DNA from: Pseudomonadota bacterium
Lineage (GTDB): Bacteria; Pseudomonadota; Gammaproteobacteria; Steroidobacterales; Steroidobacteraceae
DNA: 44,446 nucleotides
Direction: 5' to 3'
NCBI GenBank assembly: GCA_021785405.1
Contig: JAJYFF010000020.1
Span: 1-44,446 of the forward strand
Positions 1,463-37,793 of this stretch are shown here, one piece after another; position 1 is the stretch's first letter, and every line of letters starts with the position of its first letter. Position numbers and translations under genes: made by a program. Under the pieces are notes generated by a model that saw only the letters and a list, made by a program, of their open reading frames with translations, was not told where the DNA came from and made no database searches.

Positions 1463-2608
1463 TCAGCGCGCGAACAGGTGCGGCCGCAGGTGCTCGACGA
1501 TCCGAAGCCACGCGTCGCTCGCCGGATCGATCGGCGGCATGTGAGAGACGCCGGCGAGCGGCAACCAATCGACCCGATCGCCGGCGCGCCGCGCGGCCTC
1601 GACGTAGCTCGCCGCGAGCTCGAACGGCACCGACTCGTCCTCGGTGCCGTGCACGACCAGTTGCGTCACGCCGAGCGGGAGCAGGGTGGCCGGATCGGTC
1701 CAGGCGTCGTCGGCGGCGCGCGGAACGAACGCGTCGACCGCGCCGCTCCCCAGACCGCGGCGCCGGGCGTCGGCGAGGTCGGCGACCGCGCCGATCGCGA
1801 CCGCGAGCCGCGGCATCGCCGCCGGCGGTGCGCCGGGCGACCCGGGCGGCAGGCGTTGGCGCGCGGCGCACCAGAGCGCGAGGTGACCGCCGGCCGAATG
1901 GCCGAGCACCACCGGCGCGCGAGGCTCGAGCGGATGGCGCTCCCAGAGTCGCGCGCCGAAGTCGAATGCCGCGGCGACGTCGTCGAAGGTTCGCGGACAA
2001 CCGCCGCCGCTGCCGCCGACGCGGCGATACTCGACGTTCCAGGTCGCGACGCCGCGGCGGGCGAGGTCGACCGCGAGCGGTGCCATCACGTCGCGCCGAT
2101 AGGCTTCGCGCCAGAATCCACCGTGCAAGAGGATCACCAGCGGCACGCGATCCGCGGGCGCGAGGGGCAGCCGCAGATCGCCGACCTGGTCGATCGCCGC
2201 GCCGTATCGAAGGGTCGCGTACGGATGGGCGGTCGTGCTCGCGAGATGCTGCAGGGCCCAGTGCAGACTGTGGTCGCCGCGGCCGCTGATGCACGCGTCG
2301 GTCGCTCGGTCCAGCGGGTCCGGCGTGTAGTCGATCCGTCGCCCGCGCGCCGCGTACGCCGACGCGTGAGCGGCGAGCGCGGCGTCCCGAGCCGCCTCGC
2401 GCGCGAGCACGAGCGCATCGATCCCGCCGGCCTCGATCGCGCGGCGCGCTTGCGCGGCGTCCCCGGTGGCGAGCACTTGCCACTCGAGACCGGCCGTCGC
2501 GGGCCAGGCGACCGCGCGCTCGGCGTCGCGAGCCGCTCCCGGTGGGGTCACGACCAGGATCCGATGGAGCGCAGCGTCCGTGGTCGCGCGGTGAGGGGTC
2601 GGTGCCAT
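1463..2608 (-). CDS. Alpha/beta hydrolase with extra N-terminal domain (arylformamidase/esterase-like)
   Basis: A protein of 381 residues. The C-terminal ~240 residues are an alpha/beta hydrolase: oxyanion motif HGGFW at 162-166, nucleophile elbow GHSAGG at 236-241 (Ser238), a late GTEDESVP acid loop and a SHMPP histidine segment. HGG[FY]W is typical of kynurenine-formamidase-like esterases. The first ~125 residues look like a separate alternating alpha/beta domain (HRILVV... then ALVLAR...) that I do not recognise. It starts 65 bp after the slcC stop in the same direction, so it may be cotranscribed with the sulfolactate genes, although no known pathway step requires it. Hydrolase fold is confident; substrate is unknown. 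Confidence 0.8.
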   Translation of the reverse strand: MAPTPHRATTDAALHRILVVTPPGAARDAERAVAWPATAGLEWQVLATGDAAQARRAIEAGGIDALVLAREAARDAALAAHASAYAARGRRIDYTPDPLDRATDACISGRGDHSLHWALQHLASTTAHPYATLRYGAAIDQVGDLRLPLAPADRVPLVILLHGGFWREAYRRDVMAPLAVDLARRGVATWNVEYRRVGGSGGGCPRTFDDVAAAFDFGARLWERHPLEPRAPVVLGHSAGGHLALWCAARQRLPPGSPGAPPAAMPRLAVAIGAVADLADARRRGLGSGAVDAFVPRAADDAWTDPATLLPLGVTQLVVHGTEDESVPFELAASYVEAARRAGDRVDWLPLAGVSHMPPIDPASDAWLRIVEHLRPHLFAR

Positions 2609-2642: not shown

Positions 2643-2693
2643 GCGCGGCGCGTCGCTCAGCGCGGCGCGTCGCTCAGCGCAGGGCGTCGCTCA
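2643..2693. repeat. Three tandem copies of a 17-bp unit at the 3' end of slcC
   Basis: Units at 2643-2659, 2660-2676 and 2677-2693. The first two are identical (GCGCGGCGCGTCGCTCA) and the third differs by only a few bases. The slcC stop codon (2674-2676) lies at the end of the second unit, so the third copy encodes the last residues of the protein and the others lie in the spacer before the hydrolase gene. 17 is not a multiple of three, so expansion or contraction would change the C-terminus. Replication slippage is the simplest explanation. Confidence 0.7.
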
Positions 2694-3597
2694 CCGCGCG
2701 CGCGGTCACGTCGCTCACGCGCACGTTGGACTCGTCGGTCACACCGGCGATGTGCGGGGTCAGGATCAGGTTCGGCGTTCCACGGAACGCGCTGCCGGCC
2801 GCCGCATCGACCGGCTCGGTCTCGAACACGTCGAGCGCCGCGCCGCCGAGGCGCCCGTTCCGCAGAGCGTCGATCAATGCCGCTTCGTCGACGATGCCGC
2901 CGCGCGCCGCATTGATCAGGATCGCGTCGCGCTTCATCCGCGCCAGCGCGGCGGCGTCGATCAGCCGACGCGTGGTCGGCGTCAGCGGCGTGTGCAGGCT
3001 CACGACGTCGCTCGACGCGAGCAGCGTCTCGAGCGTGAGGCGCTCGGCGTGACGCCACGCCGCGTGGTCCGCCGGCAGGAACGGATCGTACGCCGCGACC
3101 TGGAAGCCGAGCGCGTTCGCCTTGTGCGCGGTCAAGCGGGCGATCGCCCCGTACCCGACCAATCCGAGTCGCTTGCCTTCGCCTTCGCGGCCGATCGAAT
3201 CCATCCTCGGCCACGCGCCCGCCATCACCCGGTCGCTCGCGAACCAGGCGCGGCGCAGCAGTAGCAGCGCTGCGGTCAGCACGTATTCGGCGACCGCGAG
3301 GTCGTTCGCGCCGGTCGCCGGCCGGACCGCGATGCCGCGCGCCGCGCAGGCCTCGACGTCGATGTTGTCGAGGCCGACCCCGAGGCGACCCACGACCTGC
3401 AGTCGGCTCGCCGCGTCGAGCAGCGCGCCGCGCACCGGCGTCCGATTGCGGACGATCAGCGCGCGGCAGTCGGCGACCGCGGCGAGCAAGCGCTCCGGCT
3501 GATCGACGAGCTTCGGGTCGTAGAGCACGGTGCGACCGGCGAGGTGCCGCGCGATCGCCGCCTCGTCCATGAATTCGCTGATCACGACGTCGCTCAT
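2674..3597 (-). CDS. slcC: D-2-hydroxyacid dehydrogenase, probable (S)-sulfolactate dehydrogenase
   Basis: A protein of 307 residues of the D-isomer-specific 2-hydroxyacid dehydrogenase (phosphoglycerate dehydrogenase) family. Catalytic residues are visible: Arg232 in NAARGG, Glu261 in FETEP and His282 in LTPHIAG. The Rossmann motif reads GLVGYGAIA, so the third glycine of GxGxxG is Ala153. In characterised sulfolactate degraders, SlcC of this family oxidises (S)-sulfolactate to sulfopyruvate with NAD+. The ATG overlaps the upstream dehydrogenase stop by four bases (ATGA), and the order suyA-suyB-comC-slcC is what makes the sulfonate substrate likely. By sequence alone it could be a glyoxylate/hydroxypyruvate or phosphoglycerate dehydrogenase; family certain, substrate inferred from context. 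Confidence 0.78.
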   Translation of the reverse strand: MSDVVISEFMDEAAIARHLAGRTVLYDPKLVDQPERLLAAVADCRALIVRNRTPVRGALLDAASRLQVVGRLGVGLDNIDVEACAARGIAVRPATGANDLAVAEYVLTAALLLLRRAWFASDRVMAGAWPRMDSIGREGEGKRLGLVGYGAIARLTAHKANALGFQVAAYDPFLPADHAAWRHAERLTLETLLASSDVVSLHTPLTPTTRRLIDAAALARMKRDAILINAARGGIVDEAALIDALRNGRLGGAALDVFETEPVDAAAGSAFRGTPNLILTPHIAGVTDESNVRVSDVTARAVSDALR

Positions 3598-4595
3598 GCG
3601 CGCTGCTCCGCCAATCGCTGGATCTGTTCGTGGAGCTCCGCGGGGATCTCGATCGCCGTCGCGCGCGCGCGGCGCTCGAGCCGCCGATCGCCGGGGAGCC
3701 GCACGCCGGGCTCGGCGCTGATCGTCGCGAGCAGGTCCTGCATCCGCGCGCCGTAAGCTGGGCCGGCGAACGCCGCGGGATCGAGCGCGATCAGCAGCTG
3801 ACCGACCCCGGGCGCCTCGCCGCGGTCGTCGAGGAACGAACTCGCTTCCCAGCCGAATCGGGCGCCGACCAGCGCCGCGCACAGGATCTCGACCATCAAT
3901 GCGAGCGCCGCACCCTTCGCGCCGCCGATCGGCAGCAGCGATCCCGCGAGCGCGGTCGCCGGATCGTCGGTCGGACGGCCGGCCGCGTCGATCGCCCAGT
4001 CCGTCGGGATCTTCCGTCCCGCGTTCTGCGCCGCGACGACCTTGCTGCGTGCGACGAGCGACAGCGCCAGGTCGATCACGAGCGCGGGCCGCCCGGGAAT
4101 CGGCGCGGCGAACGCGATCGGGTTCGTGCCCATCATCGGCCGCGCGCCGCCGTGAAAGGCCATCGCACGGGGGGTGTTGGACGCCAGCAGCGCGATCAGG
4201 CCCCGGTCGGCGAGACGCTCGACGGTCGCGCCCGCCTGGCCGACGTGGTGCGACGCGCGGATGCCGGCGGCCACGATGCCGGCGTCGGCGATCAGCGCGG
4301 GGATTCGAGCGATCGCGAGGTCCAGCGCGGGGTAGGCAAAACCGCCGCCGGCATCGATCCACAGGCTCGCGGATCGCGCTCCGACGACCCTCGGCACGGC
4401 TTGTCCGTCGATCTTGCCGGACTTGACCTGGGCCGCGTACGCCGGGATGCGGGCGAGGCCGTGACCCGCCTGCCCGTCGACCTCGGCGCCGACGAGCGCG
4501 CGGGCGGTCGACGCCGCGGCCGCGGCCGACGCGCCGCTCGCCGCGAGCGCGCGCACCGCGAGCGCCTCGGCCTCGGCCGGATCCAGACGGCGCAT
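3594..4595 (-). CDS. comC: Malate/L-lactate dehydrogenase family, probable (R)-sulfolactate dehydrogenase
   Basis: A protein of 333 residues of the Ldh_2 (malate/L-sulfolactate/L-lactate dehydrogenase) family, a fold unrelated to classical lactate dehydrogenases. Typical segments are GHGLARIP near residue 45, SHHVGQAGA and MMGTNPIAFAAP, followed by the GGAKGAALALMVE region. ComC of this family reduces sulfopyruvate to (R)-sulfolactate; together with SlcC it inverts (S)- to (R)-sulfolactate, the substrate of SuyAB. It starts about 22 bp after the suyB stop and overlaps slcC by four bases, so the genes are translationally linked. A GTG at 4601 is an alternative start adding two residues. Malate, ureidoglycolate or other 2-hydroxyacid substrates cannot be excluded from the sequence alone. 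Confidence 0.8.
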   Translation of the reverse strand: MRRLDPAEAEALAVRALAASGASAAAAASTARALVGAEVDGQAGHGLARIPAYAAQVKSGKIDGQAVPRVVGARSASLWIDAGGGFAYPALDLAIARIPALIADAGIVAAGIRASHHVGQAGATVERLADRGLIALLASNTPRAMAFHGGARPMMGTNPIAFAAPIPGRPALVIDLALSLVARSKVVAAQNAGRKIPTDWAIDAAGRPTDDPATALAGSLLPIGGAKGAALALMVEILCAALVGARFGWEASSFLDDRGEAPGVGQLLIALDPAAFAGPAYGARMQDLLATISAEPGVRLPGDRRLERRARATAIEIPAELHEQIQRLAEQRA

Positions 4596-4617
4596 CGGCA
4601 CGCGGTCCGCGCCCCCG

Positions 4618-5793
4618 TCAGGCGCTGCGGTAGAGTTTGGTCATCACGAATTCGCGATGACCGAGCGCCTCGGCGCAGGTGTACCGGCCGTTCGCGGTGC
4701 GGACGATGCAGTCGATCAACCGATCGCCCGCCTGGTCGATCGTCAACTCCCGCCGCACCACCCCGGAGACGTCGAGGTCGATGTGTTCGCTCATCACGCG
4801 CACCGTGCGCGGGTTACCGCTGATCTTGATCACCGGCATGATCGGATTGCCGATCACGTTGCCTTGACCCGTCGGAAACACGTGCACGACGTAGCCCGCG
4901 GCCGCCTGCAGCGTGCAGCACTCGGCCGCCGCCGAGGAGGTGTCCATGAAGTAGAGCCCGCGCCCGCGCTGCGGCGCCTCCGCCGGCTCGAGCACGTCGA
5001 TGAAGCGGGTCTTCTTGCCGATCTTCTCGAGATTGCCGAGCGCCTTCTCCTCGATCGTCGTCAGTCCGCCGGCGATGTTGCCCTTCGTCGGCTGGCTGTC
5101 GGAGAGATCCGAGGTCTTGTGCGCCTCGATCACGTCGCGCTGGTACGCGGTCCACGTCCGCATGAACTTCTCGCGGATCTCCGGCGTTGCGGCGCGCGCG
5201 GCGGCAAGGTGCTCGGCGCCGGTGAGCTCCGAGGTCTCGCCGAAACATCCGTACAGGCCGAGCGGCACGAGTTTGTCGTACATGTTGCCGACGGTCGGGC
5301 AGGACGCGAGTCCGGTCGTCGTGTCGCTCTCGCCGCACTTCGCGGCGACCCAGACGTCGCCGAGCGGACACTCGACCCGCACCTGCTCGGAAGCCAGGTG
5401 CACGAATTCCTTGGCCTTGCGCGACGCGGCGGCGACGGTCGCGATGTCGCCGTTGCCCTCGATCCAGAAGCCCGCGACCGGCTTGCCGGTCTTCGCGATG
5501 CCCGCGACGACCTGCTCGGTCCATGCGGGTTCGATGCCGATCACGATGCAGGCGGCGACGTTCGGGTTCGCCCCGGTGCCGATCATCGTGCGGAAGTGCA
5601 ATTCGAGGTCTTCGCCGAATTGCAGGCGGCCGTACGCGTGCGGCAGCGCGATCGTGCCCTGGATGTGCGCGGCGACGGCCTCGCAAGCGGCATTCGAGAT
5701 GTCGTCGAGCGGCAGGATCGCGACGTAATTGCGGACGCCGACGCGGCCGTTCTCGCGGCGATACGCCCAGACGGTACGGTTGGAGAGATCCAT
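4618..5793 (-). CDS. suyB: (2R)-sulfolactate sulfo-lyase, beta subunit
   Basis: A protein of 391 residues of the altronate dehydratase (UxaA C-terminal) family, the large subunit of a split two-subunit lyase. Segments I recognise as SuyB-like are [47 protein letters not shown] and the C-terminal [14 protein letters not shown]. Cysteines in [11 protein letters not shown] and ASCPTVGN are candidate metal ligands. SuyAB cleaves (R)-sulfolactate into pyruvate and sulfite, removing the sulfonate from carbon. The length matches the known subunit. I chose the ATG at 5793, 5 bp after suyA; a GTG at 5802 overlapping the suyA stop would add three residues. Sugar-acid dehydratase is the main alternative, but the resemblance to SuyB and the adjacent SAF-domain partner make this call strong. 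Confidence 0.88.
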
Positions 5794-5798
5794 GGGTG

Positions 5799-6089
5799 TC
5801 ACCAGCGCTTGGTCTTCAGGTTGTGGGTATGAACGTGGTCGCCCTTGCGGATCGGCGCGACCACGCGACCGATGTCCTCGCCGTACTTGATCACGGTGTC
5901 GCCGACGGCCAGGTCCTGCAGCGCGATCTTGTGCCCGATCGGGACGTCCTGATTGCACGTCGCCCGCCGCTCGCTGTTGTCCTCGGTCACGACGCACAGC
6001 ATGTCGGTGCCCGCGGTGAGCCCCTCGACCACGACCACGCCGACGTTATCGCGGCGGTCGTGGATCAATAGATGAGGTATGTTTGCCAT
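5799..6089 (-). CDS. suyA: (2R)-sulfolactate sulfo-lyase, alpha subunit (SAF domain)
   Basis: A protein of 96 residues made of one SAF domain, the small subunit that in related sugar-acid dehydratases is fused as the UxaA N-terminus. The C-terminal half (IPLGHK-type [37 protein letters not shown]) is the characteristic SuyA segment. It forms the active sulfo-lyase with SuyB, whose gene follows after 5 bp. I chose the ATG at 6089; an in-frame GTG at 6098 would add three residues. It is the first gene of the leftward operon and is divergent from the dehydratase operon, with a 17-bp inverted repeat in the 56-bp gap between them. Confidence 0.88.
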
Positions 6090-6115
6090 GGATTGCACGG
6101 TCCACTGTGGTAAGT

Positions 6116-6132
6116 CTTGTATTAGATATAAG
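6116..6132. promoter_or_regulatory. Probable GntR operator, site 1 (suyA / dehydratase divergent promoter)
   Basis: CTTGTAT-TAG-ATATAAG: an imperfect inverted repeat with 7-bp arms, a 3-bp spacer and one arm mismatch, in an AT-rich patch that stands out in this GC-rich DNA. The same element occurs as a perfect palindrome upstream of the GH31 gene at 12149-12165; 15 of 17 positions agree. It lies 26 bp upstream of the suyA ATG and 13 bp upstream of the first dehydratase ATG, so it could control both divergent operons. Binding by the GntR protein at 11321-12040 is inferred. Confidence 0.7.
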
Positions 6133-6145
6133 ATTACAGATTAAG

Positions 6146-7903
6146 ATGACGAATTCAAGTAGCCAAGCGACCCAGGGGGCGACCGGAACCATGCTGCGCA
6201 GCGCGCGATGGTACGAACGCGAGGACATGCGCGGCTTCGCGCACCGCCAGCGTACCCAGCAGATGGGCCTGCGGCGCGAGGAGTTCCTCGGCCGGCCGGT
6301 GATCGCGATCGTGAACACCTGGAGCGACATGAGTCCGTGCCACGTCCACCTGCGCGATCGCGCGGAGGCGGTCAAGCGCGGCGTGCTGCTCGCCGGCGGC
6401 TATCCCGTCGAACTGCCCGCGCTGTCGGTCGGCGAGGTGATGGTCAAGCCGACGACGATGATGTACCGCAATTTCCTCGCGATGGAGACGGAGGAGTTGC
6501 TGCGCTCCCATCCGATCGACGGTGCGGTGCTGCTCGGCGGGTGCGACAAGTCGACGCCGGGCTTGTTGATGGGCGCGCTCAGCATGGGCCTGCCGGCGAT
6601 CTTCTGTCCGGCCGGGCCGATGTCCAACGGGCAGTGGCGCGGCGTCAAGACGGGCGCGGGAACCCATACGAAGAAGTATTGGGACGAGCTGCGCGCGGGG
6701 AACATCACCGCCGACGACTGGATCGACCTGGAGTCGCGGATGACGCGGTCGATCGGCACCTGCAACACGATGGGCACCGCGTCGACGATGACGTCCATCG
6801 TCGACGCGATGGGCTTGACCTTGACCGGCGCGTCGTCGATCCCCGCGGCGGACTCCGGGCACGTGCGGATGGCCTCGGCCTGCGGCGAACGCATCGTCGC
6901 GATGGTGCACGAGGGTCTGACGATCGACCGGATCGCGACCGCCGCGGCGTTTCGCAACGGCGTCGTCGCGTACATGGCGCTCGGCGGATCGACGAACGCC
7001 GCGATCCACCTGATCGCGATGGCGGGCCGGGCCGGCGTCGCATTGACGCTCGAGGATCTCGGCGCCGCGGCGCGCGAGACGCCGGTGCTCGCGAACCTGT
7101 TCCCCTCGGGCGATCGACTGATGGAGGATTTCTTCTTCGCCGGCGGCATGCCCGCGCTGCTCGCGAAGCTGCAGGATCGGCTCGACCTGGGCGCGCTCAC
7201 CGTCGAGGGACGACCGCTCGGCGAGGCGCTCGCGCGCGCGCAGTGCTGGGACGACGACGTGATCCGCGGCGTCGACGATCCGGTGGTGCCCTTGTCGCGA
7301 GGGGCGACGCTCGCGGTGCTGCGCGGCAATCTGTGCCCCGACGGCGCGGTGCTGAAGTCGAGCGCGGCCGATCCGCGCTTGCTGCGGCACGAAGGCCGGG
7401 CGCTGGTGTTCGACGATCACGCGACCTTGTCGGCGCGGATCGACGACCCGGCGCTCGAGGTGGACGCGGATACCGTGCTCGTGTTGCGCAACGCCGGTCC
7501 GGTCGGCGCACCGGGGATGCCGGAGTGGGGGAATCTGCCGATCCCGAAGAAGCTGCTCGCGCGCGGCGTGCGCGACATGGTCCGTATCTCGGACGCGCGC
7601 ATGAGCGGAACGCACTACGGTTGTTGCATCGTGCACGTGGCGCCGGAGGCGGCGATCGGCGGGCCGCTCGGGTGGCTGCGCACCGGCGATCGGATTCGGC
7701 TCGACGTGCCCGCGGGCCGGCTCGAGGCCTGCGTGGAGGAGGGCGAGTGGCAGCGGCGCCGCGCCGAATGGCGCGCGCCGGCATCCGCGTACCAGCGCTC
7801 GTACGCGGCGCTCTACCGGGCGCACGTGAGCCAGGCGCCGGCGGGTTGCGATTTCGACTTCCTGGCGGGGCGCGCACCGACGCCCGAGCCGCCGATCTAC
7901 TGA
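6146..7903 (+). CDS. IlvD/Edd-family dehydratase, probable 6-deoxy-6-sulfogluconate dehydratase
   Basis: A protein of 585 residues of the dihydroxyacid/phosphogluconate dehydratase family. Candidate iron-sulfur ligands are Cys65 (SDMSPCHVH), Cys133 (GGCDKSTPG) and Cys206 (GTCNTMGTAS), all in family-typical positions. In the sulfo-ED pathway this step removes water from 6-deoxy-6-sulfogluconate to give 2-keto-3,6-dideoxy-6-sulfogluconate (KDSG). It leads a tightly packed rightward operon with aldolase, mutarotase, lactonase and SDR genes. The start is uncertain: ATG at 6146 lies only 13 bp after the operator repeat, and ATG at 6191 (MLRSARWYE, preceded by AGGGGG) is a credible alternative. Another sugar-acid dehydratase (arabonate, xylonate, gluconate) is possible on sequence alone; the sulfonate assignment comes from the neighbours. 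Confidence 0.82.
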   Translation: MTNSSSQATQGATGTMLRSARWYEREDMRGFAHRQRTQQMGLRREEFLGRPVIAIVNTWSDMSPCHVHLRDRAEAVKRGVLLAGGYPVELPALSVGEVMVKPTTMMYRNFLAMETEELLRSHPIDGAVLLGGCDKSTPGLLMGALSMGLPAIFCPAGPMSNGQWRGVKTGAGTHTKKYWDELRAGNITADDWIDLESRMTRSIGTCNTMGTASTMTSIVDAMGLTLTGASSIPAADSGHVRMASACGERIVAMVHEGLTIDRIATAAAFRNGVVAYMALGGSTNAAIHLIAMAGRAGVALTLEDLGAAARETPVLANLFPSGDRLMEDFFFAGGMPALLAKLQDRLDLGALTVEGRPLGEALARAQCWDDDVIRGVDDPVVPLSRGATLAVLRGNLCPDGAVLKSSAADPRLLRHEGRALVFDDHATLSARIDDPALEVDADTVLVLRNAGPVGAPGMPEWGNLPIPKKLLARGVRDMVRISDARMSGTHYGCCIVHVAPEAAIGGPLGWLRTGDRIRLDVPAGRLEACVEEGEWQRRRAEWRAPASAYQRSYAALYRAHVSQAPAGCDFDFLAGRAPTPEPPIY

Positions 7904-7907
7904 TGCC

Positions 7908-7915
7908 GAGGAGAG
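7908..7915 (+). promoter_or_regulatory. Ribosome binding site of the aldolase gene
   Basis: GAGGAGAG lies 5 bp before the ATG at 7921 and decides that start over the ATG at 7903, which overlaps the dehydratase stop codon (TGATG) and has no Shine-Dalgarno sequence in front of it. Confidence 0.65.
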
Positions 7916-7920
7916 TGCCG

Positions 7921-8721
7921 ATGGAGACGAACGCGTTCAAGCAGCGGCTCACGACGCCCGGGCCCGTTCCGCTGCTCGGGACCTGGCTGATGTCCGCCGC
8001 GCCGACGGTCGCCGAGGCGCTCGGCTTCTGCGGGTTCGATTTCCTCGTCGTCGACATGGAGCACAGTCCGCTCGACCTGGCGGACGCGGTCGGCTTGATG
8101 CGGGCGATCGCCGGCACGCCGTCCGAGTCGCTCGTCCGCGTGCCGTGGAACGACCAGGTTGACGTCAAGCGCGTGCTCGACGCGGGCGCCCGGAACGTGA
8201 TGTTCCCGTTCGTGCAGAACGCCGAGGAGGCCGCGGCGGCGGTCGCGTATACCCGCTACCCGCCGCAGGGCGTGCGCGGGGTCGCGGCCGTGCACCGGGG
8301 GTCGCGCTACGGACAGACCCGCGACTACCTGCGCACCGCGAACGCGACGATCGCGGTCGTGATCCAGCTGGAAACGCCCGCAGCGCTCGAGCGACTCCCG
8401 GCGATCGCGGCGGTTCCGGGCGTCGACTCGCTGTTCCTCGGGCCCGGTGACCTGTCGGCGGCGATGGGTCGGATCGGCGAGATCGCGCATCCGGAGGTGC
8501 AGGCCTTGATCGCGAAGGCCGCCCGGGATGCGCACGCGGCGGGCAAGACGATCGGGACCGTCGGCGCGAATCCCGAGATCGTCGCCCAGTACCTCGGCTA
8601 CGGCTACGATTGGGTCGCCGTCGCGTCGGATCTCGCGATGCTGACGGGTCGCGCGGGCGATTGCCTCGGTGCGATCCGCGGTCACGCCACCGGCTCGGCG
8701 GCCGCCGGGGCCGCCTATTGA
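7921..8721 (+). CDS. HpcH/HpaI-family aldolase, probable KDSG aldolase
   Basis: A protein of 266 residues, the usual length of class II pyruvate aldolases of the HpcH/HpaI (2-keto-3-deoxy acid) type. Visible features are DMEHSP at 45-50 (Glu47/His48), the metal-binding Glu151 in QLETP and Asp177 in LGPGDLS, and the family segments GARNVMFPFVQ and PPQGVRG. In the sulfo-ED route this enzyme splits KDSG into pyruvate and (S)-sulfolactaldehyde. It follows the dehydratase almost without a gap and precedes the mutarotase by 7 bp, matching the gene neighbourhood expected for the pathway. By sequence alone it could be a 2-keto-3-deoxy-rhamnonate or 4-hydroxy-2-oxoheptanedioate aldolase. Confidence 0.82.
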   Translation: METNAFKQRLTTPGPVPLLGTWLMSAAPTVAEALGFCGFDFLVVDMEHSPLDLADAVGLMRAIAGTPSESLVRVPWNDQVDVKRVLDAGARNVMFPFVQNAEEAAAAVAYTRYPPQGVRGVAAVHRGSRYGQTRDYLRTANATIAVVIQLETPAALERLPAIAAVPGVDSLFLGPGDLSAAMGRIGEIAHPEVQALIAKAARDAHAAGKTIGTVGANPEIVAQYLGYGYDWVAVASDLAMLTGRAGDCLGAIRGHATGSAAAGAAY

Positions 8722-8728
8722 GTCCGCG

Positions 8729-9619
8729 ATGACGGCGCGGATCGCGTTGCGATCGGGCGACTGGCGCGCCGCCGTCGCGCCGACGATCGGTGGCGCGATC
8801 GTCGATCTCTCGCTCGGCGACCGCGCGATCCTGCGGCCGACGCCGGACGAGGCGTTCGCGCGGCAAGACGTGCGGCGCACCGGCGGGTATCCGCTCGTGC
8901 CGTACGCGAACCGCATCGCGCTCGGCCGCTTCCGCGTCGGCGCAAGCGAGTACCGGCTGCGCCGCAATTTTCCCGAGGGCGCGCATCCCCTGCACGGCGT
9001 CGGCTGGCGGCGGCCCTGGCAGGTCACGCACGCCGACGAGACCCGCTGCGAGCTGCGCCTCGAGCATCGGCCGCGCGGCGACGACGCACTCGACTGGCCG
9101 TTCGCGTTCGATGCGATCGAAACCGTCGAGCTCGGATCGCGGGGCCTGAGGATCGAATTGCGGGCGACGAATCGCGAGAACGTCGCGGTGCCGCTCGGCT
9201 TGGGATGGCACCCGCTGTTCCCGCGCCGCGATGGTCAACGGCTGCGATTCGCGGCGGACGGCTGGTGGCGCAACGGCGACGACGAGCTGCCGCAGCAGGC
9301 CGTTGCCGGTCTGCCCTGGGACGTCGAGCGCGGACTCGAGGTCGGCGAACGGTCGTTCGACAACGATTTCTACGGCTGGCGCGGCGAGGCGCAACTCGTC
9401 GAGCCCGATGGTTGCACGGTGCGGATCACGGCGGAGGCGTCGCTCCCGGTGCTGAGGGTGTTCGTGCCCGCGGGCCGCGATTTCCTGGGGATCGAGCCGG
9501 TCAGCCACGTCGCCGACGCGATCAATCGTCCGGCGCTGCGCGCGGGGAGCATGCCGGTCGTCGCTCCCGGCGAACGCGTCGGCGGCGCCGTCACGATCGG
9601 CACGGAGCGGCGCGCATGA
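8729..9619 (+). CDS. Aldose 1-epimerase family protein, probable sulfoquinovose mutarotase
   Basis: A protein of 296 residues of the galactose-mutarotase superfamily, seen from HPLHGVGWRRPW, the histidine in GWHPLFPRRDG, the DNDFYGW strand and the C-terminal EPVSHVADAIN. Mutarotases interconvert alpha and beta anomers of a hexose; in SQ loci they convert alpha-SQ released by the glycosidase into the beta anomer used by the dehydrogenase. The start at 8729 (MTARIALRSG) lies 7 bp after the aldolase stop; an upstream in-frame start lies inside the aldolase. The stop codon overlaps the next ATG by four bases. Family confident, SQ substrate inferred from context. Confidence 0.8.
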   Translation: MTARIALRSGDWRAAVAPTIGGAIVDLSLGDRAILRPTPDEAFARQDVRRTGGYPLVPYANRIALGRFRVGASEYRLRRNFPEGAHPLHGVGWRRPWQVTHADETRCELRLEHRPRGDDALDWPFAFDAIETVELGSRGLRIELRATNRENVAVPLGLGWHPLFPRRDGQRLRFAADGWWRNGDDELPQQAVAGLPWDVERGLEVGERSFDNDFYGWRGEAQLVEPDGCTVRITAEASLPVLRVFVPAGRDFLGIEPVSHVADAINRPALRAGSMPVVAPGERVGGAVTIGTERRA

Positions 9620-10497
9620 TCGCCGGGCCGGCGCGCGGCGCGCAGTTCCGCCGGGTGCTCGACTGCGGCTGCGCGGTCGGGGAATCCCCGGTGTGGCTGC
9701 CCGAGTCCGGCGAGTTGCTGTTCGTGGACGTGCCGGCCGGTCGTTGGTTTCGCTACGATCCGGCGCGCGGCACGCGCGTCGAATTCGACGCCGGCGAAGC
9801 GATCGGCTGCGTCGCGCCGGTGGTCGGCGGCGGTTTCGTCGCGGGGCTGCGCTCGGGCGTCTGGCGGTTCGACGCGGCGGGCGCGAACCGCACGCTGCTC
9901 GCCGCGAATCCCGAGGACACCGCGGTCAGTCGCTTCAACGACGGACGCGTCGACCCGGCCGGCCGGCTGCTGATCGGGACGATCGACGAGCCGAAGGTCG
10001 GCGGCCGCGCCGGCTTGTACCGGCTCGACCGCCGCGGTCTCGTGCGCCTCGCCGACGGGTTGATGACCTCGAACGGACTCGCGTTCTCGCCCGACGGCAA
10101 GACGATGTATCACTCGGATACGCCGCGATTCGTGGTCTACCGGTGCGACTACGACGTCGCGACCGGCGGCGCGACCAATCGCCGCGTGTTCGTGCGCATC
10201 GAACCGACGGCGACGGATCGCGGCCGTCCGGACGGGGCCGCGGTGGACGTGGAGGGGTGCTACTGGAGCGCGCTCTACGAGGGCGGCCGGGTCTGCCGTT
10301 ACGATCCCGACGGCCGCTTGATCGCCACGTATCCGGTCCCGGCGCGCTCGCCGACGATGCCCGCATTCGGCGGACCGGAACTCACCACGCTGTACGTGAC
10401 GACCGCTCGCGATCCGGACGGCCGGGGCGGCGACTTGTTCGCGCTGGATGCGGGCGTCGCCGGATTGGCGCCGCATGCCTTCGACCCCGATGTCTGA
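9616..10497 (+). CDS. SMP-30/gluconolactonase family, probable 6-deoxy-6-sulfogluconolactonase
   Basis: A protein of 293 residues, a six-bladed beta-propeller of the SMP-30/gluconolactonase/LRE family. Expected divalent-metal ligands are present: Glu23 in GESPVW, Asn153 in TSNGLAFSPDG and Asp206 in PDGAAVD. The family hydrolyses sugar lactones; in sulfo-ED this step opens sulfogluconolactone to sulfogluconate. Translation is coupled to the mutarotase through an ATGA overlap, and the SDR gene follows 39 bp downstream. No signal peptide is seen, in line with a cytoplasmic pathway. Confidence 0.84.
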   Translation: MIAGPARGAQFRRVLDCGCAVGESPVWLPESGELLFVDVPAGRWFRYDPARGTRVEFDAGEAIGCVAPVVGGGFVAGLRSGVWRFDAAGANRTLLAANPEDTAVSRFNDGRVDPAGRLLIGTIDEPKVGGRAGLYRLDRRGLVRLADGLMTSNGLAFSPDGKTMYHSDTPRFVVYRCDYDVATGGATNRRVFVRIEPTATDRGRPDGAAVDVEGCYWSALYEGGRVCRYDPDGRLIATYPVPARSPTMPAFGGPELTTLYVTTARDPDGRGGDLFALDAGVAGLAPHAFDPDV

Positions 10498-11301
<804 letters not shown>

Positions 11302-11320
11302 CCGGCCGCGAGCGGCGCTC

Positions 11321-12040
11321 TCAGGTCAAGGTCACCGCGTAGACGAGGTCGCCCGACCTCACGCGGCTCACGCGCCACTCGACCTTGCGCTTCTGCAGCG
11401 ACAGCGCGACGCGGTCGATCACCAGGATCGGGCTGCCGACCGGCACGCCGAGGATCCGCTGGTCCGCCGCGGTCGCGAGATCCGCGCAGACTTCCTCGCG
11501 CGTCGCGACGATGTTGATGCCGTATTCCGTCTGGTACAAGGAGTAGAGCGTGTTCGGGAGGCCGGCACGCTTCTCGATACCCGCGAACAGGTGCGCGGGG
11601 AGGATGATCACCTCGTGCAGCGCCGGCTGTCCGTCGATCAAGCGCGTGCGCGTGATCTCCACGACGCGGGCGTCGCGATCGAGATCGAGCTTGGCGCGCT
11701 CGGCGGCACGCGCGAGCCGCGTCTTCACCGTCTCGCCCGCGCGCGCGGGCTTCAGGCGCTCGCCGCCGGGACGCGAGATCCGGAAGAAGCGGAACAGCGA
11801 GCGCTCCTGGGTGTGCTCGGCGATGTAGGTCCCCTTGCCCTGCCGCCGCTCGAGCAACTTCTCCGCGGTCAACGCGTCGAGGACCTTGCGCACCGTGCCT
11901 TGACTGACGCCGAGTTCCTTCGCGAGGCTCTGTTCGCTCGGCAAGGCTTCGCCGGGGCGCCAGGCGCCCTGGACGACCCGGTTGACGACGATGTCGTAGA
12001 CCTGTCGGTACAGAGGACGATAGCCCGGCGTTTGGCTCAC
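11321..12040 (-). CDS. GntR-family (HutC/UTRA) transcriptional regulator of the sulfonate locus
   Basis: A protein of 239 residues with an N-terminal winged helix-turn-helix (YRPLYRQVYD... PSEQSLAKELGVSQGTVRKVL, ending GKGTYIAEH) and a C-terminal UTRA-like ligand domain (ITRTRLIDGQPALHE..., IGSP-like VPVGSPILVIDR). I chose the GTG at 12040 because AGGGAGAG lies just upstream and the residues added by an earlier start at 12109 do not resemble the family. It sits convergent to the SDR and divergent from the GH31 gene. HutC-type regulators usually repress until a pathway metabolite binds UTRA; SQ, sulfogluconate or sulfolactate are plausible ligands. Operator candidates are at 6116-6132 and 12149-12165. 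Confidence 0.88.
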   Translation of the reverse strand: MSQTPGYRPLYRQVYDIVVNRVVQGAWRPGEALPSEQSLAKELGVSQGTVRKVLDALTAEKLLERRQGKGTYIAEHTQERSLFRFFRISRPGGERLKPARAGETVKTRLARAAERAKLDLDRDARVVEITRTRLIDGQPALHEVIILPAHLFAGIEKRAGLPNTLYSLYQTEYGINIVATREEVCADLATAADQRILGVPVGSPILVIDRVALSLQKRKVEWRVSRVRSGDLVYAVTLT

Positions 12041-12044
12041 ACGA

Positions 12045-12052
12045 CTCTCCCT
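12045..12052 (-). promoter_or_regulatory. Ribosome binding site of gntR
   Basis: On the minus strand this reads AGGGAGAG, 4 bases before the GTG start at 12040. It is the main reason for choosing the GTG over the longer frame starting at 12109. Confidence 0.6.
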
Positions 12053-12130
12053 GGCGGCAGGCGGGACACTACGATGAACGCGCTTGCGCTGTCCATCCCG
12101 CCGATCCACGGTGGCGAGGCCGCGGCGCGC

Positions 12131-12158
12131 TTGCGAGGCGGTTCATGTCTTATATAAG
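12131..12158 (+). promoter_or_regulatory. Possible sigma-70 promoter for the GH31 gene
   Basis: TTGCGA at 12131-12136 and TATAAG at 12153-12158 are separated by 16 bp, a reasonable -35/-10 pair. The -10 element lies inside the 17-bp palindrome at 12149-12165, so a bound regulator would block polymerase. The remaining bases up to the GH31 ATG hold nothing else I recognise. Confidence 0.4.
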
Positions 12159-12165
12159 ATATAAG
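12149..12165. promoter_or_regulatory. Probable GntR operator, site 2 (gntR / GH31 divergent region)
   Basis: CTTATAT-AAG-ATATAAG, a perfect 7-bp inverted repeat with a 3-bp spacer, in the 269-bp divergent region between gntR and the GH31 gene. It matches site 1 at 6116-6132 in 15 of 17 positions, and the agreement extends two bases to the left (GT in both). Its position suggests control of the glycosidase gene and autoregulation of gntR. The protein-DNA link is inferred. Confidence 0.75.
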
Positions 12166-12309
12166 GGTTGGCGGTCTCGAAGCAAGGCCGCTGCCGGCGA
12201 CCGCGGCGCGGTGCCGGCGCGAATCCACGCGGATCACGGGTGCTCGACCAATGCATGACGACGATTCCATCGACAGGGCGCCCGGTCGGCGCCGCGACGC
12301 GGTGACGCG

Positions 12310-14328
12310 ATGCCGCTGATCGAACGGGCGGACGGGTTCGACCTCGTGATCGGCGGCGTGACCTTGCTGCGCCACCGGCGGCATGCGCCCTGCGCGTACC
12401 TCGGCGCCGGCGAGCCCGACGTGCGGATGACCCACGGTCACTTCCGGATCGAGGACTACCTGGTCTCGCGGGTGCCGCTCGTCGATGCGCAAATCACGTC
12501 GCGAGCCGGCGGGGCGCAGATCGTCCTGGCGGCCGCGGGTTCCGCGGGACCGAAGCTCGTGTTGGGCGTCGACGAGTCGGATCGACATCTCGTGCTGTCG
12601 TGGCACTGCGAAACGGCCGGCGTGAACCGCTGCTGGCTGCGCGTCGCCGCGAGCGCGAACGAACGGGTCTGGGGCGGTGGCGAGCAATTGTCGTATTTCG
12701 ATCTGCGCGGCCGGCGCTTCCCGCTGTGGACGTCGGAACCCGGCGTCGGGCGGGACAAATCGACCCGGATCACGTTCGAGTCCGATCGTCGCAACGGCGG
12801 CGGTGGCGATTACTACACGACGAACTATCCGCAGCCGACCTACCTGAGTTCGAGTCGCTATGCGCTGCACGTCGAGACCACGGCGTTTGCGGCGTTCGAC
12901 TTCCGGCACGCGGATTTCCACGAGATCGAGGTCTGGGAGGTGCCGGCCCGGATCGAGGTCTGGCACGCGCCGCACTTCCGGGATCTGGTCGAGACGCTGT
13001 CGGCGCGGTTCGGACGCCAGCCGCGCTTGCCGGCGTGGGTGCTGGGCGGCGCGATCGTCGGCCTGAAGGACGGTGCGCGCAGCTTCGAACGGCTCGAACG
13101 CATCATCGCGGCCGGGAGCGCGGTCAGTGGGTTGTGGTGCGAGGACTGGGTCGGGATCCGCGAGACCTCGTTCGGCAAGCGCTTGTTCTGGGATTGGCGC
13201 TGGAACCAGGATCGCTATCCGGGGCTCGACCAGAAGATCCGCGAACTCGACGCCCGCGGGATCCGGTTCCTCGGCTACGTGAACCCGTACCTGTGCACCG
13301 ACGGCGGCCTGTTCGAGGAAGCCGCGGGCGCGGGCTATCTCGTGCGCCGTCTCGACCGCGACGAGATCTACCTCGTCGATTTCGGCGAGTTCGAGTGCGG
13401 CATGGTCGATTTCACCCATTCGGGCGCACGGTCCTGGTTCGCGGAGCGGGTGATCGGGCAGAACATGCTCGACTTCGGACTGTCCGGATGGATGGCCGAT
13501 TTCGGCGAATACCTGCCCGTCGACGTGCGGCTCGCGAGCGGCCTGGACGGCATGCTCGCGCACAACGCATGGCCCACCGTGTGGGCGAAGGTGAACGCGG
13601 ACGCGGTCGCGAGCCGGGGCAAGACCGGCGACACGGTCTTCTTCATGCGCGCGGGCTTCACCGGCGTGCAGCGGTATTGTCCCTTGCTCTGGGCCGGCGA
13701 TCAGTCGGTCGATTTCACCCGTCACGACGGCCTGCAGACGGTGATCTGCGCAGCGCTGTCGTCGGGCCTGCTGGGCAACGCGTACCATCACAGCGACATC
13801 GGCGGCTACACGAGCGTGTTCGGCAACGTGCGCACCGCCGAGTTGCTGATGCGCTGGGCGGAGATGGCGGCGTTCACCGCGGTGATGCGGACGCACGAGG
13901 GCAATCGTCCCGGCGAGAACCTGCAGATCGACCAGGACCCCGACGTGCTCGCGCACTTCGCGCGGATGACCCGCGTCTACCGGCATCTGTCGCCTTATCT
14001 CGCCGATCTATCGGCCGAGGCCGAGCGCTGCGGACTGCCCGTGCAGCGACCGCTGTTCCTGCATTTCGAGGCGGACGAACGGGCGTACGCGACGCAAACC
14101 ACCTATCTCTACGGTGCGGACGTGCTGGTCGCGCCGGTGATCGACGCGGGTGCGCGCCGCTGGACCGCCTATCTCCCGGCGGGCGTCGAGTGGATCCACG
14201 CCTGGAGCGGCGCCGAGTACCCCGGCGGGAACGATGCGCAGGTCGATGCGCCGCTCGGTCGACCCCCGGTGTTCTATCGCAAGGACAGCCGCTACGCGGC
14301 CTTGTTCGCGGGCCTCCGCGCCTGTTGA
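12310..14328 (+). CDS. yihQ: GH31 sulfoquinovosidase
   Basis: A protein of 672 residues that resembles E. coli YihQ over its whole length as I recall that sequence (for example GGGEQLSYFDLRGRRFPLWT, TSFGKR, GWMADFGEYLP, SDIGGYT). Catalytic residues are Asp397 (nucleophile, MADFGE) and Asp464 (acid/base, WAGDQ). Sulfonate-recognition positions read Lys253 (GLKDG), Glu278 (CEDW), Arg291 and Trp294 (KRLFW) and Tyr500 (GGYTS), i.e. the KERWY variant described for the Agrobacterium enzyme rather than the QQRWY of E. coli. The enzyme releases SQ from sulfoquinovosyl glycerol or diacylglycerol. No signal peptide is visible, so it should act in the cytoplasm. It is divergent from gntR and followed by glpD. 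Confidence 0.93.
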   Translation: MPLIERADGFDLVIGGVTLLRHRRHAPCAYLGAGEPDVRMTHGHFRIEDYLVSRVPLVDAQITSRAGGAQIVLAAAGSAGPKLVLGVDESDRHLVLSWHCETAGVNRCWLRVAASANERVWGGGEQLSYFDLRGRRFPLWTSEPGVGRDKSTRITFESDRRNGGGGDYYTTNYPQPTYLSSSRYALHVETTAFAAFDFRHADFHEIEVWEVPARIEVWHAPHFRDLVETLSARFGRQPRLPAWVLGGAIVGLKDGARSFERLERIIAAGSAVSGLWCEDWVGIRETSFGKRLFWDWRWNQDRYPGLDQKIRELDARGIRFLGYVNPYLCTDGGLFEEAAGAGYLVRRLDRDEIYLVDFGEFECGMVDFTHSGARSWFAERVIGQNMLDFGLSGWMADFGEYLPVDVRLASGLDGMLAHNAWPTVWAKVNADAVASRGKTGDTVFFMRAGFTGVQRYCPLLWAGDQSVDFTRHDGLQTVICAALSSGLLGNAYHHSDIGGYTSVFGNVRTAELLMRWAEMAAFTAVMRTHEGNRPGENLQIDQDPDVLAHFARMTRVYRHLSPYLADLSAEAERCGLPVQRPLFLHFEADERAYATQTTYLYGADVLVAPVIDAGARRWTAYLPAGVEWIHAWSGAEYPGGNDAQVDAPLGRPPVFYRKDSRYAALFAGLRAC

Positions 14329-14449
14329 GTGAGCCCGCCGCGCGCGAGCCGACGCGAATGGGCCAAGCGTCGACGCGTCCGGCGAACCGGGGGCGCGGGC
14401 GGGTGCGGTAACCTATCGTCTACCGGGATCCATCCGCTGGTGTGGTGCA

Positions 14450-15949
14450 ATGACGAATTCGCTTGAGTCCTCTTCGGTCGATCTGGTCGTCGTCGGCGGC
14501 GGGATCAACGGCGCCGGTATCGCGCGCGACGCGGCCGGCCGCGGCCTGTCGGTGCTGCTCGTCGAGCGCGGCGACCTCGGCAACGCGACCTCGTCGGCGT
14601 CGTCGAAGCTGATCCACGGCGGATTGCGATATCTCGAGCAATATCAGTTCCGGCTCGTGCGCGAGAGCCTCGCGGAACGGGAAGTCTTGCTGGCCGCGGC
14701 CGGCCATCTGATCTGGCCGCTGCGATTCGTGTTGCCGCTGCACCGGGGCCTGCGGCCCGCGTGGGTGCTGCGGACCGGCCTATGGCTCTACGACCACATC
14801 GGCGGACGAGACCGCTTGCCGCCGACGCGCACGCTCCGGCGCGGCCGTGATCCGGAGCTCGATCCGCTGCGCGCCGAGTTCCGCCGGGGCTTCGAATATT
14901 CCGACTGCTGGGCGGACGACGCGCGGCTGGTCGTGACCAATGCGGTCGACGCGCGTGCGCGCGGCGCGAGCGTCGAGGTCGGCACGACGTTCGAAGCCGC
15001 GCGGCGCGAGGGTCGCGAATGGCAGGTTCGGCTCGCGAGCCCGGGCGGCGGCGGCCGCATGGTGCGTGCGCGCGCGCTCGTGAACGCCGCGGGCCCGTGG
15101 GTCGAGCAGATCCTGCGCGGCAGTGGGGCGCCACGGCGCAACGCGGTGCGTCTCGTGAAGGGGAGCCACATCGTCGTCCCGCGGGTGTACTCCGGCGAGC
15201 AGGCCTATACGCTGCAAAACCGCGACGGACGGGTCGTGTTCATGATCCCGTACGAGAAGGCGTTCACGTTGATCGGCACGACCGACGTGCCGTTCGACGG
15301 GGACCCGACCGAGCTGCGCGCGGATGCCGAGGAGATCGAGTACCTGTGCCGATCGGCATCCGATTACCTGCCGACCCCGATCTCGCCCGGCGACCTGCGC
15401 TGGAGTTACGCGGGCGTGCGGCCCTTGCACGACGACGGCGCCCAGAACGCCTCGACGATCACGCGCGACTACGTGTTCGACCTCGACGCGCCGCCGGCCG
15501 CGGCACCGATGCTGTCGGTGTTCGGCGGCAAGCTGACGACCTATCGAAAGCTCGCGGAGCACGCCCTCGCGCAATTGCTGCCCGTGCTCGGCGTGCGCAC
15601 GGGACCGTGGACGCGCGCCGCGACGCTGCCGGGTGGCGACTTCCCGCCGGGAGGCTACGAGGCGTTCGCGCACTCGATGCGCCTGCGGCACGGCGGGTTC
15701 CCGCCGACCTTGATCGATCGGCTCTGCCGCGCGTACGGCACGATCGCCGAACGGATCCTCGGCGGCGCGGTCGACCCGCGCGGCCTCGGCGAGGAGATCG
15801 CACCCGAACTGTTCGAGGCGGAGTTGCAGCACCTGCGGGAGCGGGAATGGGCGCGCAGCGCCGACGACGTGCTGTGGCGCCGCTCCAAGCTCGGGTTGCG
15901 CTACGACCGCGCGCAGGCGGATCGCGTGCGCGCGTGGTTCGGCGGCTGA
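14450..15949 (+). CDS. glpD: FAD-dependent glycerol-3-phosphate dehydrogenase
   Basis: A protein of 499 residues with the FAD-binding GGGINGAG near the N-terminus and the GlpD signature SSKLIHGGLRYLEQ, followed by VRESLAERE; the C-terminal helical domain is complete. GlpD oxidises sn-glycerol 3-phosphate to dihydroxyacetone phosphate at the inner membrane and passes electrons to quinone. It follows the sulfoquinovosidase gene by 121 bp in the same direction, which fits use of the glycerol released from sulfoquinovosyl glycerol, with glpK at 22319-23818 providing the kinase. The 121-bp gap may hold its own promoter; none is obvious. Homologue identity is confident. Confidence 0.92.
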   Translation: MTNSLESSSVDLVVVGGGINGAGIARDAAGRGLSVLLVERGDLGNATSSASSKLIHGGLRYLEQYQFRLVRESLAEREVLLAAAGHLIWPLRFVLPLHRGLRPAWVLRTGLWLYDHIGGRDRLPPTRTLRRGRDPELDPLRAEFRRGFEYSDCWADDARLVVTNAVDARARGASVEVGTTFEAARREGREWQVRLASPGGGGRMVRARALVNAAGPWVEQILRGSGAPRRNAVRLVKGSHIVVPRVYSGEQAYTLQNRDGRVVFMIPYEKAFTLIGTTDVPFDGDPTELRADAEEIEYLCRSASDYLPTPISPGDLRWSYAGVRPLHDDGAQNASTITRDYVFDLDAPPAAAPMLSVFGGKLTTYRKLAEHALAQLLPVLGVRTGPWTRAATLPGGDFPPGGYEAFAHSMRLRHGGFPPTLIDRLCRAYGTIAERILGGAVDPRGLGEEIAPELFEAELQHLREREWARSADDVLWRRSKLGLRYDRAQADRVRAWFGG

Positions 15950-32204: not shown

Positions 32205-32207
32205 ACG

Positions 32208-34655: not shown

Positions 34656-34692
34656 ACGTCGAAGCCACCGGGCATTCCGAGGAGTCCATCGA

Positions 34693-35934: not shown

Positions 35935-35961
35935 GGCCGCACCGGAGGGCAGCGCGCCGCG

Positions 35962-37722: not shown

Positions 37723-37793
37723 CGGGACCACCGTTTCACAGCATAATGCGCGCAAGGTTACCCGATTTTCGTGCCGTGACATCCAGAGCCGCG

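Follow-up and report, generated by a model that had tools for sequence, protein, structure and literature searches.

Bacteria that degrade sulfoquinovose (SQ) through the sulfoglycolytic Entner-Doudoroff (sulfo-ED) pathway are generally portrayed as passing the sulfonate half of the sugar on to a second species. Here we analyse 44,446 nucleotides from a member of the Steroidobacteraceae (contig JAJYFF010000020.1 of assembly GCA_021785405.1; hereafter the window), the whole of one contig (C12) in a 2.92-Mb genome of 133 contigs that is 96% complete. At positions 2674-15949 it carries a sulfo-ED gene set beside the genes of sulfolactate desulfonation, SuyAB, ComC and SlcC, and this stretch is probably a locus for SQ mineralisation whose genes form a single regulon, judging by gene content and by the distribution of an operator-like site.

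Closest described systems

Four described systems, each taken here from excerpts of its paper, come close. In Paracoccus wurundjeri Merri, a tandem of a sulfofucose Entner-Doudoroff (ED) pathway and SuyAB was demonstrated in 2025, in a paper that regards finding both in a single bacterium as unusual and refers to a Klebsiella (PMC12421959). As in the window, ED-type cleavage there leads into SlcC/ComC/SuyAB within one cluster, and the sulfolactaldehyde (SLA) dehydrogenase is likewise left unassigned; the cluster differs in its substrate, sulfofucose, in a dehydratase of the PF13378/PF02746 type, in an ABC importer and in having no candidate glycosidase, and the excerpts hold no operator evidence for it (PMC12421959). 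Extended sulfoglycolytic transaldolase (sulfo-TAL) clusters of Thermotogae and Chloroflexi also have SuyAB in an SQ cluster, and full use of the SQ carbon was proposed for them, although by the transaldolase route and in other phyla (PMC9594981). An actinobacterial cluster resembling the sulfoglycolytic Embden-Meyerhof-Parnas (sulfo-EMP) pathway shares the sulfolactate sulfo-lyase SuyAB, in an SQ-type cluster that also has D-3-phosphoglycerate dehydrogenase and SLA dehydrogenase, but it uses sulfofructose kinase and sulfofructose-phosphate aldolase and has GH188 in place of GH31 (PMC11465081). Ensifer sp. HO-A22 likewise combines sulfo-ED with C3-sulfonate breakdown, for which complete mineralisation to sulfite was proposed, but its C3 part consists of 2,3-dihydroxypropane-1-sulfonate (DHPS) degradation gene clusters (PMC10599462).

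Against these precedents, the novelty suggested in an earlier reading of the window, made from its letters alone (the sequence-only reading), was overstated: the locus is a new combination of known modules, and the concept of two steps in one cell was already in print. An SQ sulfo-ED set with SuyAB in a single locus, or the operator, was not found in the open-licence literature, an absence that is weak because the search was confined to such papers without their supplements.

For the canonical sulfo-ED pathway, eight plasmid loci were compared, taken from 865 records matching the window dehydratase. Sulfo-ED clusters are present in Microvirga ossetica, Rhizobium sp. WSM4643, Shinella sp. HZN7 and Burkholderia multivorans, the last in a stretch with no annotated lactonase. 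All four have a LacI regulator, an ABC importer, a TauE/TSUP exporter and an alpha-glucosidase matching the sulfoquinovosidase, three (Rhizobium, Burkholderia, Shinella) have an annotated gene of the succinate-semialdehyde dehydrogenase (SSADH) type, and SuyAB is absent from the retrieved flanks of all four. The window holds the same SQ dehydrogenase, lactonase, dehydratase, aldolase and sulfoquinovosidase, in the gene order of the Rhizobium sp. WSM4643 and Microvirga plasmids save for an inserted mutarotase and gntR; identity to the WSM4643 set is 73% for the dehydratase, 64% for the aldolase, 50% for the lactonase, 68% for the short-chain dehydrogenase/reductase (SDR) and 62% for the sulfoquinovosidase. 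It differs from the canonical clusters in a GntR/UTRA instead of a LacI regulator, in the presence of SuyAB-ComC-SlcC, and in the lack of importer, exporter and SSADH genes at the locus.

Among the remaining plasmids, that of Paracoccus seriniphilus carries SuyAB and gntR with a dehydratase of the sulfo-ED branch about 8 kb off, and no sulfoquinovosidase in the stretch; this dehydratase lies beside a mandelate racemase family gene, and the histidinol-dehydrogenase-like and SDR genes near SuyAB are read here as a DHPS-type set. The Salipiger locus holds only the dehydratase and aldolase, the Variovorax locus, which carries no annotation, matches the dehydratase, the aldolase (41%) and, weakly, the SDR, and the Rhizobium BT04 locus is arabinonate-type.

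Enzymes of the two modules

Gene content, family membership, key residues and site distribution were read directly from the sequence, with gene starts set from homology and spacing and Pfam calls judged against curated cut-offs. The coordinates and gene list of the sequence-only reading proved right: in protein profile searches every gene that it named is present with its family above the cut-off, by a wide margin except for SuyA, and glpD comes in addition. SuyAB, ComC and SlcC are encoded on the minus strand, the sulfo-ED set and glpD on the plus strand, and gntR on the minus strand. Its central observation, sulfo-ED and SuyAB/ComC/SlcC in one locus, is borne out by family and solved-structure matches.

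The GH31 protein (12310-14328, plus strand, 672 aa) matches the Agrobacterium (963.6 bits) and Escherichia coli sulfoquinovosidases, with PDB 5ohy and 5ohs at 963.6 and 961.5 bits. In the alignment its R291, W294 and Y500 fall on R283, W286 and Y491 of the Agrobacterium enzyme AtSQase, and all of AtSQase 283-286 (Arg-Leu-Phe-Trp) and Tyr491, positions that we take to be sulfonate binders, are kept. The SDR (10537-11301, plus strand, 254 aa) has PDB 9gwu as its best match and scores 304.5 bits with the SQ dehydrogenase of Pseudomonas putida (PpSQDH), compared with 212.2 for the next PDB sequence. According to the catalytic and SQ-binding residues named in the excerpts of PMC12133307, it keeps nine of nine checked (Asp99, Arg101, Asn119, Ser147, Arg152, Arg154, Tyr160, Lys164, Gln198), including the catalytic tetrad and the sulfonate-binding Arg152/Arg154, and the cofactor residue Asp45 is present too.

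The remaining steps are covered by an IlvD/Edd sulfogluconate dehydratase (6146-7903, plus strand, 585 aa; PF00920, 332.1 bits), an HpcH/HpaI aldolase for 2-keto-3,6-dideoxy-6-sulfogluconate (KDSG; 7921-8721, plus strand, 266 aa; PF03328, 138.5 bits), an aldose 1-epimerase as putative SQ mutarotase (8729-9619, plus strand, 296 aa; PF01263, 130.3 bits) and an SMP-30 sulfogluconolactone lactonase (9616-10497, plus strand, 293 aa; PF08450, 268 bits), of which the lactonase and aldolase are assigned at the family level. The dehydratase assignment draws also on its tree position: it falls together with five dehydratases encoded on plasmids, three of which belong to sulfo-ED clusters, on a branch (support 100/99) that omits the arabinonate-type enzymes, the congeneric paralogues and the Burkholderia and Variovorax rows.

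The dehydratase is also where another sulfosugar, e.g. sulfofucose, has to be considered. ED plus SuyAB has been demonstrated for that sugar in Paracoccus, with the same families in three of the four ED steps (PMC12421959), but the window enzyme belongs to PF00920 as in SQ degradation and not to PF13378/PF02746, and such a substrate is very unlikely here. Neither PF13378/PF02746 (the enolase-superfamily SfcF type) nor the transaldolase family of sulfofructose transaldolase was found among the scanned locus proteins.

In the sulfolactate module, suyA (5799-6089, minus strand, 96 aa) and suyB (4618-5793, minus strand, 391 aa) are adjacent genes for the small, SAF-type and the large, UxaA-type subunit of sulfolactate sulfo-lyase. 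SuyB scores 271.8 bits with PF20629 and 113.3 with PF04295 and is 75% identical to the SuyB of a Paracoccus onubensis locus (L106). SuyA, with a SAF (PF08666) score of 22.3 bits, is barely above the cut-off of 21, and its assignment rests on its place before suyB and on SuyA matches in 79 of 80 SuyB loci. The genes of a ComC-like sulfolactate dehydrogenase of the Ldh_2 family (3594-4595, minus strand, 333 aa; PF02615, 305 bits) and an SlcC-like (S)-sulfolactate dehydrogenase of the 2-Hacid_dh family (2674-3597, minus strand, 307 aa; PF02826, 184 bits; PF00389, 80.9 bits) adjoin each other here and wherever the fused loci described below cover both, and we infer that the pair performs the (S) to (R) inversion.

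It might be asked whether a pathway for a non-sulfonated sugar acid, e.g. L-arabinonate or galactarate, has been misread as sulfonate metabolism. The NCBIfam name for the window dehydratase is indeed L-arabinonate dehydratase (886.4 bits against a cut-off of 882), and SuyB is a member of the galactarate dehydratase superfamily. However, the dehydratases within canonical sulfo-ED loci bear the same label, which is therefore no evidence against SQ, SuyB reaches 134.2 bits with the NCBIfam galactarate dehydratase model, far under its cut-off of 730.85, and sulfonate-binding residues are retained in two enzymes, GH31 and SDR; this explanation is hardly credible.

A shared operator-like site and its regulator

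The two modules diverge from a promoter gap of 56 bp between the start codons of suyA and ilvD (6090-6145, as read from the sequence), which contains at 6115-6133 an operator-like palindrome, TCTTGTATTAGATATAAGA, with the half-sites TCTTGTAT-TAG-ATATAAGA. When the window was scanned with three mismatches allowed, the sole further site was TCTTATATAAGATATAAGG at 12148-12166, between the sulfoquinovosidase gene and the gene of a GntR/UTRA regulator (11321-12109, minus strand; PF00392, 78.3 bits; PF07702, 90.2 bits), and shuffles gave an expectation of 0. Across the 2.92-Mb genome, the pattern TCTTRTATNNNATAYAAGR with up to two mismatches occurs in just these two places, and a reversed control gave 0. 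These two copies, the only ones in the genome and both in the locus, lend substance to the earlier suggestion of one regulator over both modules. We label the regulator SuyR-like; the name suyR is used in PMC6018796, whose excerpts do not state a family.

Because the pattern was derived from the window alone, other loci provide an outside test. Of 555 confirmed SuyB loci the best 80 were taken, and 79 had a SuyA match and sufficient upstream sequence. A site agreeing in at least 13 of 16 positions lies within 250 bp upstream of suyA in 56 of the 79, loci that are related to one another and hence not independent events, compared with eight of 1446 random windows drawn from the same SuyB loci; a perfect site is found in 17 of the 79 and in no control. 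As a further control, stretches preceding the matches of ComC, SlcC, SDR and aldolase were scored, and 6 of 146 reach 13/16, namely the SDR of locus L053, the aldolase of L057 and four slcC genes, and those at the L053 SDR and the L057 aldolase are read as real sites. All 13 fused loci in the SuyB set (12 and L053) reach 13/16, compared with 43 of the remaining 66. The L057 cluster (Sinorhizobium sp. 6-70) has the site before both suyA and its KDSG-aldolase homologue; it gives no PF00920 dehydratase match and resembles published sulfofucose clusters.

In 22 genomes searched, sites with at most one mismatch occur only on locus-bearing contigs (in G075, that of the L057 locus), and the reversed pattern matched in four (G003, G005, G007, G075). 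Six congeners were searched out of 17 without SuyB, and none has a site at one mismatch, while three of the six have two-mismatch matches. G063, the genome of the fused locus L039, has no site even at two mismatches. A further site, the third on its contig, is present in four relatives (G061, G072, G073, G074); in the two that were read, G061 and G073, a TonB-dependent receptor gene comes after it. In G061 (L187, 5555-13419), the genes past glpD/glpK are those of a major facilitator superfamily (MFS) transporter, a Gfo/Idh/MocA protein, a small protein, a glucose-methanol-choline (GMC) oxidoreductase and gluconate-2-dehydrogenase subunit 3, after which come the third operator-like site and the TonB receptor.

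Of the 67 SuyB loci with no sulfo-ED genes, 48 contain a gntR homologue (39-69% identical), in 40 of them at most 600 bp from suyA, and on this ground the GntR protein is read as the regulator of the sulfolactate module. Since similar sites precede suyA in so many loci, often beside a homologous GntR, the sulfo-ED genes appear to have been captured by that regulator.

Conservation and origin of the fusion

When the loci were searched by tblastn with the window proteins, the fused arrangement was found in 15 other genomes (G002, G004, G005, G015, G019 and loci L039, L040, L041, L042, L044, L045, L046, L048, L050, L052), with L053 as a further case. The congener loci are L027-L030 and L033, with L028/L036 and L030/L038 on the same contigs and counted once; some of the 15 end at contig edges or show fewer genes in the stretch. 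A search for SSU rRNA, which might have placed the organism, gave 0 matches in this genome, and two of ten genomes searched had one. The recurrence of the same set in other assemblies argues that it is not a chance assembly. Taken with that of the window, the dehydratases of 14 of these make up a single 15-row clade (100/99), in a tree built without L050, whose dehydratase is partial in its stretch. Among the 80 SuyB loci, 13 give a dehydratase match of at least 300 bits and the other 67 none even at 60 bits.

The two modules might nevertheless be adjacent yet separate, with the sulfo-ED part excreting its sulfolactate in the manner of P. putida SQ1 and the SuyAB-ComC-SlcC part using sulfolactate that is scavenged. 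In keeping with this, an enzyme from SLA to sulfolactate is missing from the contig, and GntR, ComC and SlcC accompany SuyB in 37 of the 67 loci without sulfo-ED. On the other hand, the 56-bp gap and its site are common to both modules, and in L039 the genes from suyA through sdr lie in one run on one strand. Moreover, both modules occur together in five of 22 congeners: a SuyB match of at least 85% is present in five, all five also have a dehydratase of at least 85%, and G022 (a fragment) is the sole congener with such a dehydratase and no SuyB, so that none has such a SuyB minus the dehydratase. We regard separate modules as unlikely and the locus as real, conserved and apparently jointly regulated.

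The fusion may have arisen more than once. In L053, SuyAB-ComC-SlcC adjoins a dehydratase (61%) and an SDR (52%) that are only distantly related, and sites stand before suyA, between the divergent dehydratase and SDR genes, and further on. Its dehydratase belongs neither to the fused clade (100/99) nor, on a long branch, to the Burkholderia type (94/91), its SuyB groups with that of L051 (98), whose stretch has no dehydratase match, and it is probably an independent fusion. In a quick SuyB tree the fused label needs three changes, compared with a shuffled mean of 14.9, with which a single origin is still compatible. L035 and L037 are nested in the fused group of that tree (85) with no dehydratase nearby, which could be a loss. 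L035, L037 and L043 have SuyAB, glpD and a glpK-type gene, gntR in two of the three, and no sulfogluconate dehydratase in the flanks, and L035 retains a 60% lactonase; either loss of sulfo-ED or another sulfosugar route would fit. The more distant relatives G027 and G042 have SuyB (85% and 72%) without the dehydratase.

Missing steps and evidence against

An aldehyde dehydrogenase gene follows slcC on the same strand in L044, L045, L048 and L052, and likewise in L042, where the enzyme is 61% identical to that of L052; L053 has one (57%) beside gntR, and G004 has one near the locus. In the present genome the best candidate is an SSADH on contig 56 (C56) that shares 71% identity with the enzyme encoded within the L052 locus; it has the Arg found six residues ahead of the catalytic Cys and presumably a second substrate Arg as well. 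For uptake, two pairs of MFS and TonB genes elsewhere in the genome (C29, C24) resemble those beside the loci of relatives, with an MFS 68% identical to that beside the locus L036; no operator-like site precedes them at two mismatches, and they are generic importer candidates. TauE-family matches number four in the genome and none on this contig. The second substrate Arg is discussed in the excerpts of PMC10599462.

Several results weigh against the reading of the locus as one regulon for SQ mineralisation. The genome has 11 PF00171 aldehyde dehydrogenase matches, some of them fragments at contig ends, and none lies on this contig, an absence that the sequence-only reading did not mention; the C56 SSADH has a homologue of at least 79% in 21 congeners out of 22, of which the majority lack the locus, and for this reason looks like a housekeeping enzyme, so that a dedicated role as SLA dehydrogenase was not upheld and it remains a candidate. 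No importer was found in the locus. A PF00174 sulfite dehydrogenase was not found in the genome, and sulfite would thus need export or another use. ComC scores 180.7 bits against a cut-off of 500 for the NCBIfam L-sulfolactate dehydrogenase, so that its function and stereospecificity are proposed rather than assigned, and the second-sphere Gln260 of PpSQDH aligns with Ala in the window SDR. In addition, 23 of the 79 SuyAB loci fall short of a 13/16 site, in G022 a dehydratase fragment at the edge of a contig comes with no match to SuyB, and the assembly is a draft in 133 contigs. The predicted net conversion of SQ to two pyruvates and sulfite is accordingly not established, because the SLA dehydrogenase and importer are missing from the locus and the candidates elsewhere are generic.

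Neighbouring genes

Downstream of the sulfoquinovosidase gene lies glpD, for glycerol-3-phosphate dehydrogenase (14450-15949, plus strand, 499 aa; NCBIfam 699.2 bits, cut-off 360), and further on a glpK-type glycerol kinase gene (22328-23818, plus strand; PF00370, PF02782; start taken from the family match at 22328-23074), whose product is the sole FGGY-family kinase found in the genome. On the other side, an alpha/beta hydrolase gene of the BD-FAE type (1463-2608, minus strand; PF20434, 49.9 bits) begins 65 bp past slcC on the same strand and is a possible operon member; a 59% homologue follows slcC in L030 (same contig as L038), and none was found in the remaining fused loci covered. It and an EamA transporter gene, both in the orientation of slcC and set apart by only short gaps (488-2608), may encode a deacylase of sulfoquinovosyl diacylglycerol and a transporter. 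At 29787-37818, two DAO/GCV_T genes (dimethylglycine/sarcosine dehydrogenase type), a Rieske ring-hydroxylating oxygenase gene and a proton-dependent oligopeptide transporter (POT) gene make up a probable methylated-amine degradation cluster.

Proposed mechanism and significance

Substrates, flux, binding, repression and inducer are proposed from these data as follows. The GH31 sulfoquinovosidase would cut SQ-glycerol to SQ and glycerol, the latter consumed by GlpK and GlpD. SQ would be oxidised by the SDR, delactonised by SMP-30, dehydrated by IlvD/Edd and split by HpcH/HpaI to pyruvate and (S)-sulfolactaldehyde, which an aldehyde dehydrogenase from another part of the genome would convert to (S)-sulfolactate. 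SlcC and ComC would pass this through sulfopyruvate to (R)-sulfolactate, from which SuyAB would eliminate sulfite to give the second pyruvate. The GntR/UTRA protein would bind TCTTrTAT-N3-ATAyAAGr in the shared 56-bp promoter and in its own divergent promoter, and by acting at both would switch both modules and the sulfoquinovosidase together. Loci lacking sulfo-ED have the same site and a regulator homologue at suyA too, which makes a C3 sulfonate, for instance sulfolactate, the probable inducer.

The surprise is mostly in the regulation and less in the chemistry. Tentatively, this may be a sulfoglycolysis switched on by its product, in which a sulfolactate-sensing GntR repressor captured an SQ operon through a shared promoter and made one bacterium both primary and secondary degrader; the same site was seemingly recruited for SQ independently in L053, and stands also before the L057 aldolase, which may reflect a repeated collapse of two-species food chains into one cell.

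A survey anchored on SLA dehydrogenase genes, such as that described in the excerpts of PMC10599462, could miss loci of this type because they lack such a gene, whereas a SuyR-type site before sulfo-ED genes would be a simple genomic marker for the organisms that carry them. Sulfo-ED joined to desulfonation would let one organism free sulfite directly from the sulfolipid of plants and algae.

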